From a virus, in IMG/VR virus record IMGVR_UViG_3300046507_000002, positions 1 through 23,005 of that record: a stretch of DNA of 23,005 nucleotides; one strand, 5' to 3'. The notes under the pieces are model-generated. The model was not told where the DNA came from, did no database searches, and saw only the letters and a program-made list of their open reading frames with translations. Below, in pieces: positions 2,708 through 22,872 of this stretch. A program made the position numbers and the translations under genes. Position 1 is the first letter of the stretch. Each line of letters opens with the position of its first letter.

Positions 2708-2736
2708 GTGAGGGGCTGTGAGGGGCGCTCAGCCCC
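2702..2736. repeat. 10-bp tandem repeat and small hairpin
   Basis: GGGGCTGTGA occurs twice in tandem (2702-2711 and 2712-2721) and a partial GGGG follows. GGGGC and GCCCC at 2722-2736 form a 5-bp stem. These units can pair with the terminator stem in alternative ways. Confidence 0.6.
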
Positions 2737-2741
2737 GTGTG

Positions 2742-4913
2742 TCAGTCTTCGTCGTCCGACGTGACAAGCGCGCTCAGGTCAAGGTCGAACGCGTCGGCGG
2801 CAGCGCGAATGATGCTGTACAGCTCCGCCTTCGCCTTCCGCTTGTCGGCAGCGCTCTTGACCTTGCCGAAGCGCTTACCGGCCTTCTCAAGCTGGGTCTT
2901 CACGGCGGCAAGAGCTTCGACCGTCTTCTGACCTTCGGTCTTCTCCTCCTTCTCTCCGTCCGGCACGAACTCAGCGGGAATCTCCGCCGTCAGTTCCTTC
3001 AAGGCGCCCTCAAGCTCTTCGACCTTCGAAGCGTCGGCGTCGTCGGCTTCCTTCAGCGCCTCAAGTTCCTTCGTGGTCGCCTCAAGCTTCTTCACGCGCC
3101 GGTCGATACGGGCAAGCTCCGTACGGCCGTACTTCGGAAGCTCAACGCCGTTCTCTTCGTACAGCGCACGAATGGCGTCGGACGGCTTCAGCTCCGCCGG
3201 GTAGTCGGCTTCGTCAACGTCGGCGTCGGCCTGAGCCTCAGCGATAGCGGCGGCGTTCGCTTCGAGCTTCGCGACGGCACCCGGGAAGAGCGACCGCATG
3301 ACCGTCAGCGTCTCTTCACGGTCCGGGCCGTTGAAGGACTCAAGCCAGTCACACAGCACGTCCGAAGCCTTGTTCTGAGTGGCGCGCTGAAGGGAGTTGA
3401 AGGCGCCCAGGCGCTCAACGTCGTCGTCGGCAATGCTCTTCCGGACTTCGTCCCACACGGCGGCGTGACTGTTCTTCGTGGTCTTCCGAACCGACGTCAG
3501 GTCGGGCAGGTTGTTCGCGTCCGGGTTCGGGATGCGGGTGCGCATGTCGAGCATGGTGTGTGCCAGGCGCTCACCGACGTTGGTCATCTTCAGACCCAGG
3601 TCGATACCTTCGCTGACGAACTTGACGCCGTCCTTCACAAGCTTCGTCACGCCGTCGAACTTGTTGAAGTCTTCGGCCACTTCGGCAACGGCCTTCTTCG
3701 CAACGGCCTTCGAAGCGGTCTTCTTCGCGGCAGGGGCAGCGGGGGCAGTAGCGGCGGCAGGCGCGTCGGCGGCAGGTGCCGGGTTCAGCTCCGTCAGCTT
3801 CGCCTTCTTCGCCTCAGACACGGTCGCACGAAGCGTGTTGCGGTGCTTCGTCGGAAGCTTCGCAATCAGGTCTTCCGCCTGCCCAGCGTTCGCCTCAGCG
3901 ACGTCGGCGGACTCAGCGGCCTTGATTGCGTCGACGTGCTCATGAACACGGCTGATCTGAGCGTCAACGTCCTGGGCTTCGGGCGTAGCGGCAGCGGTCT
4001 TCTTCGCGGCAGCGGGCATGACGTTCTCTCCTTCGTTGGCGCCCTCAACGGGCGTGATCTTCTTCTGACTGACCGTCAGGTTGAGACCCGGGATCTTCAC
4101 CGGCTCTTCCGTCACGATCACGTCGCCGGTCGGAACGACCTTCGAGCAACCGGCGCACAGCTCAAGTTCGGGCTTCTGATCCATGGCCGGACCGAAGGAC
4201 CGAACGGGCGTCTTGAACTTCGTCGGGCAGTAGGTGACGTTCCGGCCGTCGGCGTCAAGCTCCGCCTTCAGAGCGTGCATGGTTCCGTTGGAACCGGTCG
4301 CGCTGCCAATCCGAATGTCGCCCCGGACGTCCTTCAGCTTCAGCTTCTTCGCGGCCATGGTGGAGCCCCCTTCGTTGTTGTCGTCGTCGTGCGTGGCCGA
4401 CTCTACCAGACTACTCACGTGAGTAGTCACGTCTTCGGCAATGTCGGCGTCGGTCACCACAACGAACGAATCGGTACGGTTCCCGTCTTCGTCCACATAG
4501 GCAACCGTCCAACCGGGCGTGATGTGGTCCGCGCCGGTCAGCTCCGTGTCGAACGTCCGGCCGTTCAGGGTCACGGTCACGGCGTCACCGATCGTGCGCC
4601 CCATCCATTCGTCACCGCGCGGGTCACGGTTCAGGCGCTCTTCACGGGCGACACGCTCAGCCTCAATCATGGCTTCAGCGGCCTTCTCACAGTGCTTGCA
4701 CAGCTTGCGACCCCCAGCCTTACGCGCTGCCTCAAGGGCGTCTTCAACGTCTTCGAACTGGGCGCCGTCCGCGAAGTTGTACCGGGTCAGCGACGGGCAG
4801 GCGCTCAGCGCGTAATCCGACACGTGGTCGCCCATGTCGTTGCCGCCGCCGGTCGAGCGAATCGCAAGCCCGTCAATGTGGTTGGTCGTCCGGTTGTACT
4901 TGACCGTGAACAT
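2742..4913 (-). CDS. Three-module 723-codon open frame, function unknown (possibly three fused or nested genes)
   Basis: The frame starts at ATG 4913 behind GAAGGGG and stays open for 723 codons. Module 1 (residues 1-185) has a CKHC Cys pair at 72-75 and a beta-rich segment, VTVTLNGRTFDTEL. Module 2 (186-298) starts MAAKKLKLKDVRGD and has a CAGC pair. Module 3 (299-723) is Ala/Lys/Glu rich: a low-complexity AAKKTASKAVAKKAVAE stretch, then long charged helices likely to form coiled coils, ending in the acidic TSDDED. Internal ATGs at 4358 and 4019 each have a near-perfect ribosome binding site, and a copy of the genome-wide palindrome precedes the first. Separate 185-, 113- and 425-residue proteins may therefore be made, alone or with read-through forms. 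I do not recognise any family. It is bounded by terminators on both sides, so it is its own transcription unit. Confidence 0.75.
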   Translation of the reverse strand: MFTVKYNRTTNHIDGLAIRSTGGGNDMGDHVSDYALSACPSLTRYNFADGAQFEDVEDALEAARKAGGRKLCKHCEKAAEAMIEAERVAREERLNRDPRGDEWMGRTIGDAVTVTLNGRTFDTELTGADHITPGWTVAYVDEDGNRTDSFVVVTDADIAEDVTTHVSSLVESATHDDDNNEGGSTMAAKKLKLKDVRGDIRIGSATGSNGTMHALKAELDADGRNVTYCPTKFKTPVRSFGPAMDQKPELELCAGCSKVVPTGDVIVTEEPVKIPGLNLTVSQKKITPVEGANEGENVMPAAAKKTAAATPEAQDVDAQISRVHEHVDAIKAAESADVAEANAGQAEDLIAKLPTKHRNTLRATVSEAKKAKLTELNPAPAADAPAAATAPAAPAAKKTASKAVAKKAVAEVAEDFNKFDGVTKLVKDGVKFVSEGIDLGLKMTNVGERLAHTMLDMRTRIPNPDANNLPDLTSVRKTTKNSHAAVWDEVRKSIADDDVERLGAFNSLQRATQNKASDVLCDWLESFNGPDREETLTVMRSLFPGAVAKLEANAAAIAEAQADADVDEADYPAELKPSDAIRALYEENGVELPKYGRTELARIDRRVKKLEATTKELEALKEADDADASKVEELEGALKELTAEIPAEFVPDGEKEEKTEGQKTVEALAAVKTQLEKAGKRFGKVKSAADKRKAKAELYSIIRAAADAFDLDLSALVTSDDED
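4017..4034 (-). promoter_or_regulatory. Internal ribosome binding site and ATG for module 3 (CDS 4019 to 2742, 425 aa)
   Basis: The minus strand has GAAGGAGAGA at 4034-4025, five bases before ATG 4019, in frame with the long ORF. The downstream protein would start MPAAAKKTAAATPEAQ. This is one of the best ribosome binding sites in the window, unlikely to arise inside a gene by chance. Confidence 0.6.
4356..4373 (-). promoter_or_regulatory. Internal ribosome binding site and ATG for module 2 (start at 4358)
   Basis: The minus strand has GAAGGGGGC at 4373-4365 and ATG at 4358-4356, in frame with the long ORF. A palindrome lies 51 bp upstream, the same arrangement that precedes five other gene starts in this window. 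The product would start MAAKKLKLKDVRG. Confidence 0.65.
4409..4428. promoter_or_regulatory. 20-bp palindrome, copy inside an open frame
   Basis: GACTACTCACGTGAGTAGTC is a perfect palindrome. It is the only one of six copies that lies within an open frame, where it encodes TTHVSS (residues 163-168 of the 723-codon ORF). The module 2 start at 4358 lies 51 bp downstream. Confidence 0.8.
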
Positions 4914-4979
4914 GCGCCCCGCCCCTTCGTCGTCTTCGCTGTGCTGTGCTCAGCCTAGCGCCCCGAAGCCCCGTTTCGT

Positions 4980-4999
4980 GACTACTCACGTGAGTAGAC
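4980..4999. promoter_or_regulatory. 20-bp palindrome, upstream of the three-module ORF
   Basis: The sequence is GACTACTCACGTGAGTAGAC, with a perfect 16-bp palindromic core (4982-4997) and one changed flank. It lies between the kinase terminator and ATG 4913, where the unit's promoter should be. Confidence 0.85.
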
Positions 5000-5990: not shown

Positions 5991-6821
5991 TTACTTGACC
6001 TTCGGGACCTTCAGCGCGTCCCACGTGGTCTTACCGGGCCAACCGTCGGCGTCGGCACCCGTGTACCCGTTCTTGCGCTGCCACTTCGCGTACGAAGCCT
6101 TGTCGGCGTCAGTCCACTGGGGACCCGGGCCGGACTTGTACGCGGAGCACCCGACGGCAACAAGCCGCTTGCCCATGGCCGTGACGATTGCCGACTTCGG
6201 CTCACCCTTGAAGAAGGCAGCACCCGGGAACGGCTCATACGACGGCTTCGGCTTCGGCTTCGGCTTGCTCGGCGTCGAGCCGGTCACGTCCGAAAGCTTG
6301 CCGGTCGCCTTGACCTTGTACCCGTACTTCGCGGCGTTCGGGTCAGCGGAGACGGAGCCGCCTTCGTAAGCCGGGTAGCCGTAGCCGTACAGGTACGAGT
6401 CACGCCGCGCGCGCTTCTTCTCATACACGCCGTCACCCTCAGCGGAGCCGTTCGCGTTCGTGTTGCCGCCGACCGTGTACACGTAATCGGCGTCGTACGA
6501 AACGACTATCTCAGTGTGCGAGCCGCCACCGTTGCCGAAGAAAACCTGAGCGCCAACCGCCGGGTACTCACTGAAGCGCCCCTTGTTGCGGAACCAAGAA
6601 ACGCCGGTTGCACACGAAGCCGTGCGCGGGAAAAGCTCAGCGTCTCCGGCCTTCAGCGCAACCCAGCTCACGAAGGTCGCGCACCATGCCTGATTCTGGG
6701 ACCACTCAAGGCCCGGAACGGCAGGCGAATACTTCTGGAAGTTGTTCCAATGTCCGCCCGACTTGCCTTCGTGATAGCCGACTTCGCCGGACGCGATAGA
6801 CAGAACCTTTGCGAGACTCAA
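5991..6821 (-). CDS. Endolysin: CHAP domain plus Streptomyces-type peptidoglycan-binding domain
   Basis: The start chosen is TTG 6821 (MSLAKVLSIASGEVGYHEG), because GAAAGAGAG lies six bases upstream; a TTG at 6848 abuts the terminator stem. The protein has 276 residues. The N-terminal CHAP domain (about 1-150) shows the catalytic Cys47 in NQAWCATFVSW, His102 in GGGSHTEIVV and a polar Asn120 in GGNTN. A KPKPKPKP linker (187-194) leads to a C-terminal domain (about 197-276) with FPGAAFFKG, GPGPQWTDADKASYAKWQ and GADADGWPGKTTWDAL, a pattern common in Streptomyces wall hydrolases. It should cut peptidoglycan at the end of infection. There is no signal peptide, so release depends on a holin. A hairpin and a palindrome lie just upstream. 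Confidence 0.92.
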   Translation of the reverse strand: MSLAKVLSIASGEVGYHEGKSGGHWNNFQKYSPAVPGLEWSQNQAWCATFVSWVALKAGDAELFPRTASCATGVSWFRNKGRFSEYPAVGAQVFFGNGGGSHTEIVVSYDADYVYTVGGNTNANGSAEGDGVYEKKRARRDSYLYGYGYPAYEGGSVSADPNAAKYGYKVKATGKLSDVTGSTPSKPKPKPKPSYEPFPGAAFFKGEPKSAIVTAMGKRLVAVGCSAYKSGPGPQWTDADKASYAKWQRKNGYTGADADGWPGKTTWDALKVPKVK

Positions 6822-6848
6822 CGTGTGCTCTCTTTCTGTGCAACACAA

Positions 6849-6876: not shown

Positions 6877-6896
6877 GACTACTCACGTGAGTAGTC
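6877..6896. promoter_or_regulatory. 20-bp palindrome, between tail fibre and endolysin
   Basis: A perfect copy of GACTACTCACGTGAGTAGTC lies six bases after the tail fibre stop and directly against the terminator stem, 56 bp before the endolysin start. Confidence 0.85.
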
Positions 6897-10704: not shown

Positions 10705-11684
10705 GAATTCCATGGCGACTTCGAGAACGACTCATTGACGTAGACGTTGGCAACCGACGCGTCAGCGCCGTACTCAATCGAGCCGTTCGCCATAAGGGCG
10801 AGTCGGCCAACGCCGCTATTCGTCGTGCCGTACGACTGACCCGAAGAGCCGTACGTGTTCTGAGTCGGTCGCGTAATCCCGGACGGCATAAGCGCGGGAA
10901 TCACAAGCTGATCAATGTCCTTGCTGGGCGACATGTTGATTTGCCCGGACAGTTCCCAGCCGTTCGAAGACTCGCGAATGTACAGCGTGCCCGTCACGGT
11001 TATGTTCGTGCCGTCCTTCGCCTGAACGTTCTGAAGCGTGCACGTCTTCCAGGGGCCCGGGTCCGACGTGTGCCACGCTCCGGCGTTCGTCCGTACCCAA
11101 CGCTGATTCGTGCCCAGGTCGTACAGCGTGAAGCCAACCGGGAACGCCGACGCCGACGGCAGCACACCCGCCCAGTCAATCGCCACATGGCCGTTCGCTA
11201 GCGTGCCCTGATCCTGATACTGACCCGTGTGCCGAACTACCGTGATAGTGAACGTGGTTGTGGCCTTCGGCACGTCAACTACGCACAGCGCAACGGAGTT
11301 TGCCGGACGCGTCGGCACAACCGGCGAAGCGGCAGGGGTGCCCTGAACAAGTTCAATGGCAAGCCCGTTGCTGCCGTCGACCGCCGACGTAGTCAGCCGC
11401 GCAACGATCAGGTCCTTACGGGGGTTGTCGTTCGAAGCCGTCGGAATGGCAATCGTGTCGCCCGACGACCATGCCCAGGTGCCGCCGCTCGACGCTCCGC
11501 CGATGAGCACGTTGCCCGACCCAACGGCCACGGTTCGGTTCGTCTGATTCGAGTTGGCAAGGAACTGGGTCGTGCTCGAAAACAGGTGACTCAGCGACCC
11601 GCGCGGAACCATGACACTTTGCCAGTTGGCAAGGTCAGCCGCGCCATACCCGACGCCGTCCTGAAACCATGCAAAGGAACTCAT
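10701..11684 (-). CDS. Minor tail / baseplate protein, 327 aa
   Basis: The start is ATG 11684, which shares its A with the TGA stop of the distal tail gene (TGATG), with AGGTGG five bases upstream; a GTG at 11693 is less well placed. The N-terminus (SSFAWFQDGVGYGAADLANWQ) is a familiar start for actinophage minor tail proteins. It is followed by Ser/Gly/Thr-rich beta segments and a C-terminal part with TLYIRESSNGWELSGQIN and TYGSSGQSYGTTNSGVGRLALMANGSIEYG, which looks like a beta-rich fibre or carbohydrate-contacting domain. A virion surface role is inferred from composition and position; no enzyme motif is visible. Confidence 0.82.
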   Translation of the reverse strand: MSSFAWFQDGVGYGAADLANWQSVMVPRGSLSHLFSSTTQFLANSNQTNRTVAVGSGNVLIGGASSGGTWAWSSGDTIAIPTASNDNPRKDLIVARLTTSAVDGSNGLAIELVQGTPAASPVVPTRPANSVALCVVDVPKATTTFTITVVRHTGQYQDQGTLANGHVAIDWAGVLPSASAFPVGFTLYDLGTNQRWVRTNAGAWHTSDPGPWKTCTLQNVQAKDGTNITVTGTLYIRESSNGWELSGQINMSPSKDIDQLVIPALMPSGITRPTQNTYGSSGQSYGTTNSGVGRLALMANGSIEYGADASVANVYVNESFSKSPWNS

Positions 11685-12565: not shown

Positions 12566-12585
12566 GACTACTCACGTGAGTAGTC
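12566..12585. promoter_or_regulatory. 20-bp palindrome, between tape measure and distal tail genes
   Basis: A perfect copy of GACTACTCACGTGAGTAGTC starts one base after the tape measure stop codon and touches the ribosome binding site of the distal tail gene. Confidence 0.85.
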
Positions 12586-16707: not shown

Positions 16708-17145
16708 CTATTGGTAGACGCGCCCACGAACACGGACGCGAACGGTCAGCGCGGAGTACGCGCCGTCAGTGGTTTCAGTGGATTCGACGGAAGCCGACTC
16801 AGGCCGTACGTCGAGCAAGCCGGGCACCGAAGCAAGGTCGGCATTCAAGGCCGCGCAAGCTTCCTTCACGTGGTCGCGTATCTCGTACACGGCACGCTCA
16901 GCGTCAATGGGATTGCCCGGGGTCGTGACAACGGCGTGCGCTTCTACGTAGCCGGTCACGTTGGTTGGCTTCGCGCCGGAGCGCATAGCCGCTGGGGCAA
17001 GGTCGTCGTCAGTGGTCGCCCCCAACCACACAGCTTTTCTACGGGAGTTGTCCCCCGTCTCAGCGAAGGTGCACTGAACGCCCGTCGGCACAGCGGCCTT
17101 CAGTGCGTTGAACAGTGCAACCTTCGCGTCAAAGATCAGCGCCAC
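16708..17145 (-). CDS. Putative tail terminator / neck protein, 145 aa
   Basis: GTG 17145 is chosen because GAGGGG lies six bases before it; the TTG at 17151 touches that site. The product (MALIFDAKVALFNALKAAVPTGVQCTFAE) has an N-terminal helix, then strands with VEAHAVVTTPGNPIDAERAVYEIRDHVKEACAALNAD and a C-terminal SALTVRVRVRGRVYQ. This alpha-beta pattern and the position just before the tube gene fit a tail terminator, which caps the tube and joins it to the connector. Sequence conservation in this group is low, so a head-closure role is an alternative. No catalytic motif is seen. Confidence 0.75.
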   Translation of the reverse strand: MALIFDAKVALFNALKAAVPTGVQCTFAETGDNSRRKAVWLGATTDDDLAPAAMRSGAKPTNVTGYVEAHAVVTTPGNPIDAERAVYEIRDHVKEACAALNADLASVPGLLDVRPESASVESTETTDGAYSALTVRVRVRGRVYQ

Positions 17146-17563: not shown

Positions 17564-17583
17564 GACTACTCACGTGAGTAGAC
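17564..17583. promoter_or_regulatory. 20-bp palindrome in an extended hairpin after the capsid gene
   Basis: GACTACTCACGTGAGTAGAC has the perfect 16-bp core at 17566-17581. Outer arms continue the pairing (GGGCGC at 17555 with GCGCCC ending at 17592), making a 38-bp imperfect inverted repeat. It sits in the gap between capsid and connector genes. Confidence 0.85.
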
Positions 17584-20822: not shown

Positions 20823-20842
20823 GACTACTCACGTGAGTAGTC
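20823..20842. promoter_or_regulatory. 20-bp palindrome, between large terminase and portal genes
   Basis: A perfect copy of GACTACTCACGTGAGTAGTC lies in the 39-bp gap between the terminase stop (20846) and the portal start (20806), beside the portal ribosome binding site. Confidence 0.85.
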
Positions 20843-20845
20843 GGG

Positions 20846-22423
20846 TCAGATATCAGAGAAGAAGTCGTCAGATTCAGCGGCGTAACCGGACGTGAACACC
20901 TGCCCGTCGTCGCCTTCCCACGTGGCGAGAATCGCCGTATCAACGTGGGCGCCGTTGTCTTCGCGCCACATGATCGCGCCGTGAACGGCTAGCACCATGG
21001 CAATAGCAAGGTCGATCTTTCGACGGCTTGCCGCGTATTCCTTCGTGACCCGGGCGCCGTTCTTGTCTTCCTTCAGGACGGCGTTACCGATGTGCCGGGC
21101 AAGAGCCGGGTTGCCGTCGTGGCAAAGCCGACCGTCACGGCACGCGTCATACACAGCCTGAGTCGCCGGAATCATGCGCTTCAGTGAGTTGGTCGGGAAC
21201 GCTTCAACCGGGAAGCCGTCGGCTTCGAGATTGTCTAGCGTCTCTTCCCAGCGGTACGGGTCGGCAACAAGGTTGCGCACCCGGTACGTATCGAGCGCTT
21301 CGTGTAGGGCGTCGCGCACGTCGGCCATGGGAACGCGCCAATGCACATCATCGGCCGGAGCTTCCCAGTGACCCAGGACGAACACCTTCAGGTCACGTAC
21401 ACGGCAGGCGACAAGCGCTGTGCTGTCACCCTTCCATGACCCATCGAAGCCCAATACAACTTCGTCCCCAGGCTCAAGCGGGTCGTCAGCGTCGGCCAAC
21501 GAATCCCAAAGCCCATGCGGCAACCACGTAGACGCGCCACGCACGAACTGTGAAAGCCGGTAGATTCGGAAGCTTGCTTCTGTGCTCCGCTGTGCTGCCG
21601 CCTTGAAGTCGTCCGGGTTCAGAATCTCGTACGACGGATTGCAGCGCGCCCACACTTCGGGGTCAAGGTGGTCGACCGTCTCACCCAGCTTCGGGCCCCA
21701 TGACCGATAGAACAACGTCGGGTCATCGGCTTCGCCGGAGTTGACGCGCTCACCTTGCTCGCACAGTGCGGCAAAGGGGCCGTCAGGGTCGGGCCCAGCG
21801 GTCGAGATAATCAAGAACATGGGCTGACTACGGGCAGCGGAACCGAGCGTCAACGCGTCGAACAGATCACTGTTCTTGCTGAACGCGTACTCATCGAGCG
21901 ACACAGCGGCAGGGTTCAAACCTTGCTGCCGTCCGGCGTCCGCCGACACGACCCGGTAAGTGTTGTCCTTGTACCGGATCACGTCGCGCTGAACGTTGCA
22001 CACAGCCGAAAGCTTCGGGCTTGCGTTCACCATTTGCTTCGCGGAGTCAAAGACCATGCGCGCCTGATTGCGGTCATTGGCAGCGGCGATTACCTGACGC
22101 TGAGTGTCGCCACGATCGGCAATCAGGTGATACAGCATGATCGCTGCGGCAATGGTGCTCTTCCCGTTCTTGCGCGCCACGCACACGACAACGGTCCGAT
22201 GCTTCCGACGCCAACGCCCGAAGGTGTCTTGCGTCAGTTCGTACGCGTCGACCAGAAGTGAACGCTGCCACGGAAGAAGCCGGAACGGCTGACCGGCGAA
22301 CGACCCAGTCAGGTAGCAAAACTCTTCAATCCACTTCGCCACCCGATAGCCTTCGGACGGGAAGGGAGCGTCAGCGGGAATGTGCCGCGCAATGACGGGA
22401 TCAATTCCAACCCAGTCAGTCAC
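20846..22423 (-). CDS. Terminase large subunit
   Basis: The 525-residue protein starts GTG 22423 (TDWVGIDPVIARHIPADAPFPSEGY); its ribosome binding site AGGGGGTG overlaps the small-subunit stop. The ATPase domain shows Walker A in ARKNGKST (83-90), Walker B in AVSLDEY (173-179) and the coupling motif IISTAG (205-210). The C-terminal nuclease domain has acidic residues at Asp327 (LGFDGS), Asp388 (VADPY) and Asp471 (KIDLAIAM). It docks on the portal and drives and cuts DNA during packaging. The type resembles the HK97/phiC31-like terminases that act with P27-family small subunits, which suggests cohesive ends, though no cos site was found here. Length is within the usual range. Confidence 0.95.
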   Translation of the reverse strand: MTDWVGIDPVIARHIPADAPFPSEGYRVAKWIEEFCYLTGSFAGQPFRLLPWQRSLLVDAYELTQDTFGRWRRKHRTVVVCVARKNGKSTIAAAIMLYHLIADRGDTQRQVIAAANDRNQARMVFDSAKQMVNASPKLSAVCNVQRDVIRYKDNTYRVVSADAGRQQGLNPAAVSLDEYAFSKNSDLFDALTLGSAARSQPMFLIISTAGPDPDGPFAALCEQGERVNSGEADDPTLFYRSWGPKLGETVDHLDPEVWARCNPSYEILNPDDFKAAAQRSTEASFRIYRLSQFVRGASTWLPHGLWDSLADADDPLEPGDEVVLGFDGSWKGDSTALVACRVRDLKVFVLGHWEAPADDVHWRVPMADVRDALHEALDTYRVRNLVADPYRWEETLDNLEADGFPVEAFPTNSLKRMIPATQAVYDACRDGRLCHDGNPALARHIGNAVLKEDKNGARVTKEYAASRRKIDLAIAMVLAVHGAIMWREDNGAHVDTAILATWEGDDGQVFTSGYAAESDDFFSDI

Positions 22424-22431
22424 GGCACCCC

Positions 22432-22872
22432 CTAGAAGTCTTCAGGACCGGCGGACACCTTCCGTGCCTCAGCGGCCACAATGCCCAGGCGCAAGCGCGA
22501 CTCAGGAGTGAAGCCAATCGCCGTTTCGATGGAACGCAATTCCTTCTCAGTCGACTCGACGTAACGAAGCATCGGGTGCGCGACCGGCTGACCGTTGTAA
22601 CCCTCAGACATGAAGCCGTCGGATTCGATCAGCGCCAACAGGTCGGCACGCCGGTCGTGAAGTTCGCAGTACCGAAGGATCACGTTGCGGTCAGTCTCAG
22701 GGGAGTAGGCACCCATTCCGGCTGACCACACGTTGCGCCATACGTCCTTGCCGGTCGCCTTCAGGTGCGAAGGGACACGGGGCGCTCGACCCTCGTACAC
22801 GATGGGGGCAGCGGAGTCGGCGGCAGAATTCGCGTTGCCGGTACGAAGCTCCGGGGCTTTGCTGCGGCTCAT
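22432..22872 (-). CDS. Terminase small subunit, P27 family
   Basis: ATG 22872 (MSRSKAPELRTGNANSAADSAAP) is preferred to GTG 22878 because AAGGGGG lies five bases upstream. The 146-residue protein has a flexible N-terminus and then RVPSHLKATGKDVWRNVWSAGMGAYSPETDRNVILRYCELHDRRADLLALIESDGFMSEG, a pattern typical of the P27 family, ending ESRLRLGIVAAEARK. This subunit recognises the packaging site and recruits the large subunit. It opens the late structural operon; a gap of about 36 bp separates it from a possible upstream frame. Confidence is good from motif and position. Confidence 0.9.
   Translation of the reverse strand: MSRSKAPELRTGNANSAADSAAPIVYEGRAPRVPSHLKATGKDVWRNVWSAGMGAYSPETDRNVILRYCELHDRRADLLALIESDGFMSEGYNGQPVAHPMLRYVESTEKELRSIETAIGFTPESRLRLGIVAAEARKVSAGPEDF

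Follow-up and report, generated by a model that had tools for sequence, protein, structure and literature searches.

The locus analysed here raises the question of why one long open reading frame should look like three genes joined in frame. The frame lies within a 23,005-nucleotide stretch of viral DNA (IMG/VR virus record IMGVR_UViG_3300046507_000002, positions 1 to 23,005; hereafter the window), where it occupies positions 2742-4913 on the minus strand and runs in translation for 723 codons from its ATG without an internal stop. A first-pass annotation had drawn attention to two internal ATGs, and offered three explanations: fusion of three genes after the loss of ancestral stops, a nested set of proteins sharing a C-terminus, or three proteins overlapping by read-through.

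Judged by homology and by its Pfam domain, the full-length frame (723 residues, 77.5 kDa) is a homologue of the immunity repressor gene c of phiC31-type Streptomyces phages. In tblastn searches against phages it matched Shawty gp22 (61% over 100%) and the phiC31 repressor c (NP_047944; 55% identity over 90%), as well as the repressors of TG1, phiBT1, Lilbooboo and Vash. The Pfam family PF25746 (Phage_Repressor_c) was found at residues 312-711 with a score of 362 bits against a curated cut-off of 27 (E 3.8e-108). The genomic context agrees: the window is collinear with the phiC31 segment from gene 31 to gene 4, and in both c is placed between the genes for dNMP kinase (52) and exonuclease (1). 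A 746-codon antisense open frame also lies over c (2718-4958, plus strand) and most likely reflects nothing more than codon usage at high G+C.

The internal ATGs are found at 4358 (codon 186) and 4019 (codon 299), from which products of 538 and 425 residues would be made. The anti-Shine-Dalgarno duplex energies of the starts at 4913, 4358 and 4019 were -11.0, -10.9 and -9.6 kcal/mol, respectively, which are the top three among the 33 in-frame ATG, GTG and TTG codons of c. By the same scoring, the ribosome-binding sites, all on the minus strand, are GAAGGGG for start 1 (4922-4928), GAAGGGGG for start 2 (4366-4373) and GAAGGAGAG for start 3 (4026-4034). When 20 genes of the window were scored, a Shine-Dalgarno score of -9.5 kcal/mol or better was reached by 2 of 298 internal in-frame start codons, and these were the ATGs at 4358 and 4019, bearing out their earlier description as having near-perfect sites. 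The starts of the genes themselves scored from -2.2 to -11.5, most of them at -7.7 or better. The two internal ATGs with their ribosome-binding sites are not a product of chance. The reported shift in protein character at both ATGs was also confirmed by composition: module 1 has a pI of 4.5 and three Cys, module 2 a pI of 8.5 and three Cys, and module 3 has more Ala, Lys and Glu and one Cys. In addition, the PF25746 domain begins just past the third start.

In the alignment, the window start codons 1, 186 and 299 correspond to phiC31 codons 1, 189 and 300. The three best-scoring starts of phiC31 c are codons 1, 300 and 189, with predicted masses of 74.1, 41.9 and 53.8 kDa, respectively, and the published masses of the phiC31 repressor are reportedly 74, 54 and 42 kDa. 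Three isoforms from one reading frame are described for this repressor (PMC4557955). The predicted middle form of the window phage (2742-4358, minus strand; 538 residues, 57.5 kDa) would be the counterpart of the phiC31 form from codon 189, and the predicted short form (2742-4019, minus strand; 425 residues, 45.5 kDa) would be the repressor core with PF25746 (residues 312-711 of the full frame). The pattern of synonymous codons around both internal ATGs fits with their use, very few codons being available for this comparison. A nested set of 723, 538 and 425 residues with a common C-terminus, one of the three explanations first offered, is a well-supported prediction for the window phage: the phiC31 homologue is known to behave in this way, and the starts and ribosome-binding sites are conserved across relatives.

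The first internal start was also said to have a palindrome 51 bp upstream, and this is indeed the case: ACTACTCACGTGAGTAGT is located at 4410-4427, inside c, separated by 51 bases from the ATG at 4358. It is a conserved inverted repeat of the phiC31 type, with 6 copies in the window at no more than one mismatch, compared to 0.00 expected in shuffles. The other copies are found before c (4981-4998), before the endolysin gene (6878-6895; phiC31 counterpart at 17009), before gene 44 (12567-12584; counterpart at 11089), before gene 37 (17565-17582; counterpart at 6097) and before the portal gene (20824-20841; counterpart at 2848). Altogether, the six window palindromes match six places in phiC31 (2848, 6097, 11089, 17009, 19200 and 19772), whose genome contains many copies of TACTCACGTGAGTAG, with a core common to the window palindrome. 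Read from the sequence, the palindrome has three forward frames, of which only ACT CAC GTG AGT (Thr-His-Val-Ser) is free of stops; this is also the frame in which the palindromes embedded in c frames, including the one at 4410-4427, are all read.

Two further differences from phiC31 were noticed. Its gene 32, for which transcription in lysogens is noted, and its palindrome before the large terminase gene have no counterpart in the window (22423-22432), where only 8 bases separate the two terminase genes. The endolysin homologue (5991-6848) lacks about 77 residues compared to the phiC31 protein, and its C-terminal part is strongly conserved (88%), an apparent internal deletion.

We consider it very probable that the frame is an immunity repressor gene c with three in-frame ATGs, giving 723-, 538- and 425-residue forms that share a core binding the palindromes and are built with exchangeable front modules. 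Ribosomes would initiate at the three ATGs with strong ribosome-binding sites, producing proteins with a common C-terminal core. By homology, this core would bind the 18-bp palindromes that lie ahead of c, within it and ahead of several late genes, and would thereby silence the lytic genes and regulate its own production. Of this mechanism, the analysis itself shows homology, the conservation of starts with their ribosome-binding sites, where the operators lie, and that modules are exchanged and leaders homologous; for the window phage itself we infer expression, DNA binding, the internal promoter, metal binding and module function.

The gene-start signals at the module boundaries are not the same. 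Start 2 has a complete set, with palindrome, leader and ribosome-binding site, and at the third start there is a conserved ribosome-binding site, with the palindrome and a leader of the start-2 type absent. A -10-like box, TAGAGT, is present in the embedded leader (4400-4405, minus strand) and another, TAGGCT, before start 1 (4952-4957, minus strand), both marking putative promoters. In two relatives, L036 and L037, c is headed by a palindrome, then TAG(G or A)GT, a leader, (G or A)AAGGGG and ATG, and the whole series comes just after an inverted repeat resembling a terminator. The window's own leader inside c, before the ATG at 4358, aligns with the front-of-c leader of L036 with a score of 68; when the palindrome was masked, the score was 44 compared to 13.1 +/- 2.5 in simple shuffles (p at its floor, 0.0005). 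L037 carries this leader two times, at the front of c and inside the frame. On these alignments, the start-2 leader is homologous to the front-of-c leader of both relatives. When the palindrome is set aside, the leaders at start 1 and start 2 of the window phage resemble each other only weakly (p 0.04), and a direct duplication of the leader within this phage is not claimed. Together, the palindrome inside c, the -10-like box and the ribosome-binding site of start 2 make up a gene head embedded in the frame, so the middle form can probably also have a transcript of its own, controlled by the operator. For the short form, which has a ribosome-binding site only, the probable source would be internal initiation on longer messages.

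For the comparison across relatives, about 30 distinct c frames were read, taken from phages, from IMG/VR contigs and from one contig of a Streptomyces genome, with the near-identical contigs L008-L010 not counted as independent. In all of them the core opens with a start codon that has a ribosome-binding site, and the first core position is a start codon in 14 of 14 alignment rows (GTG displayed as M). In Shawty the core start is GTG, a codon that the longer forms read as Val, so it is the start that is conserved and not the methionine residue. The core alone makes up the whole gene in Dubu and AbbeyMikolon, with zero front modules. One front module is present in Vash, Lilbooboo, Samora, Euratis, Heather, L044 and L045, two in the window, phiC31, Shawty, phiBT1, the S-455 contig, RemusLoopin and L036, and three in TG1 and L037. 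Throughout these c frames, strong in-frame starts coincide with the module boundaries. For example, the repressor frame of L037 (1813-4218) has four of them (781, 683, 576 and 407 residues), with three palindromes located at or within it.

This conservation also bears on the possibility of a single-chain repressor of 723 residues, in which the internal ATGs and ribosome-binding sites would be unused leftovers of module fusion. The frame is continuous in all relatives and their records annotate one long protein, as such a repressor would predict. However, both internal sites match gene starts in strength, the starts with their ribosome-binding sites persist over large divergence, including the Shawty GTG, and three isoforms are published for the phiC31 homologue (PMC4557955), which makes the single chain improbable compared to the nested set.

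The front modules were sorted into kinds by eye, using their sequences, and the same kinds turn up in different combinations. In RemusLoopin the kind found in L044 is followed by the kind found in L045, and the module preceding module 2 is common to the S-455 contig, TG1 and L037. These combinations are at odds with the core tree, of which only this mismatch was used, the root being arbitrary and several branches long. The comparison supports a gain, loss and swapping of N-terminal modules between phages. More broadly, the repressor gene could be a stackable array, in which portable N-terminal cassettes each keep a ribosome-binding start, often with an operator and a promoter-like leader, the latter being translated in the single forward frame of the palindrome that is free of stops. 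Insertion or swapping of a cassette would then change the number (one to four) and kind of isoforms, leaving the core undisturbed. We judge this wider interpretation to have an even chance of being correct.

Module 1 of the window (residues 1-185; 4359-4913, minus strand) consists of an exchangeable front with Cys39, Cys72 and Cys75 and a second half common to phiC31. Module 2 (residues 186-298; 4020-4358, minus strand) contains His213, Cys229, Cys253 and Cys256, a putative metal site which is invariant across 10 aligned relatives. The front modules with this His-Cys-CxxC pattern perhaps bind metal; as AlphaFold modelled modules 1-2 alone with a mean pLDDT of 35, the idea draws on the conserved His and Cys pattern only. 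No named domain was found for the front modules in Pfam, PHROGs assigned them for the most part to the same family of unknown function as the repressor, and a plasmid search gave no match. Front modules of this type would have been added before the core and exchanged among phages, while the boundaries retained their start signals, and they would probably tune oligomerisation or partner binding. The core was confidently modelled as all-helical over about residues 315-718. A fold search with the full model gave no PDB match at E <= 0.001 and, among viral proteins, its own homologues only, and no match to PDB sequences was found by phmmer. DNA binding by the core, whose fold matches no solved structure, is therefore proposed from homology.

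Modules of a similar kind may also occur outside c. The first 76-93 residues of module 1, its head, also head a different gene in Streptomyces phages of 68-70 kb, in Dryad gp100 and Wentworth gp95 (L006:1495-2226 and L028:992-1768). Just behind c in phiC31, the small gene product gp54 (L001:4991-5164) has a similar His-Cys-CxxC pattern and is possibly a free-standing module.

The unlinked head homologue in the Dryad and Wentworth phages, together with module exchange, could be expected if read-through or overlap gave three independent proteins, with modules 1 and 2 having separate functions unrelated to repression. This is very unlikely indeed: in none of the relatives examined was module 1 or 2 a free-standing gene next to the core, and as the frame has no stop, translation from start 1 or start 2 necessarily continues into the repressor core. 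In phiBT1, Vash and others a small gene lies before c; it was considered as a detached module and rejected, as it showed no resemblance to the modules by inspection. The earlier proposal of read-through itself finds no support, because there is no stop codon in the frame to be read through.

Returning to the nested repressor, the proposal that three genes had fused after ancestral stops were lost stands in part. Module exchange and the homology of the start-2 leader support genes joined in frame in an evolutionary sense, by module accretion, but not the loss of stops. It had been suggested that the modules be compared with relatives for intervening stop codons, and none was found in the about 30 distinct c frames, no relative examined having modules separated from its core by a stop.

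The puzzle raised by the first-pass annotation is thus settled as a known nested repressor system, here in a new member, an uncultivated phage, and the cassette pattern across the family may be new. Many relatives are annotated as a single long 'hypothetical protein' or 'immunity repressor', and the predicted isoforms are thereby hidden. As the front modules are exchangeable, with a start at each boundary, the role of the longer repressor forms can be tested by comparison.

Among named systems, phiC31 c is alike in genome position, in three corresponding in-frame starts with ribosome-binding sites, and in palindromes before and inside c. It differs in that the first ~70 residues of module 1 in the window are of another kind, that of Shawty, the window core is 41 residues longer, and the window palindromes are flanked by A..T, whereas those of phiC31 have mostly C..G. 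The repressors of TG1, phiBT1, Shawty and Vash/Lilbooboo share a core whose first codon is a start with a ribosome-binding site, and front modules with boundary starts, but differ in the number (one to three) and kind of these modules. According to the literature, phiC31 has many dispersed repressor sites. In their site layout, the repressor-stoperator systems of mycobacteriophage L5 and Streptomyces phage R4 are comparable, with many repressor sites dispersed over the phage genome (PMC4557955, PMC10276819). The L5 sites are described as asymmetric and monomer-bound (PMC4557955), whereas those of the window are palindromes.
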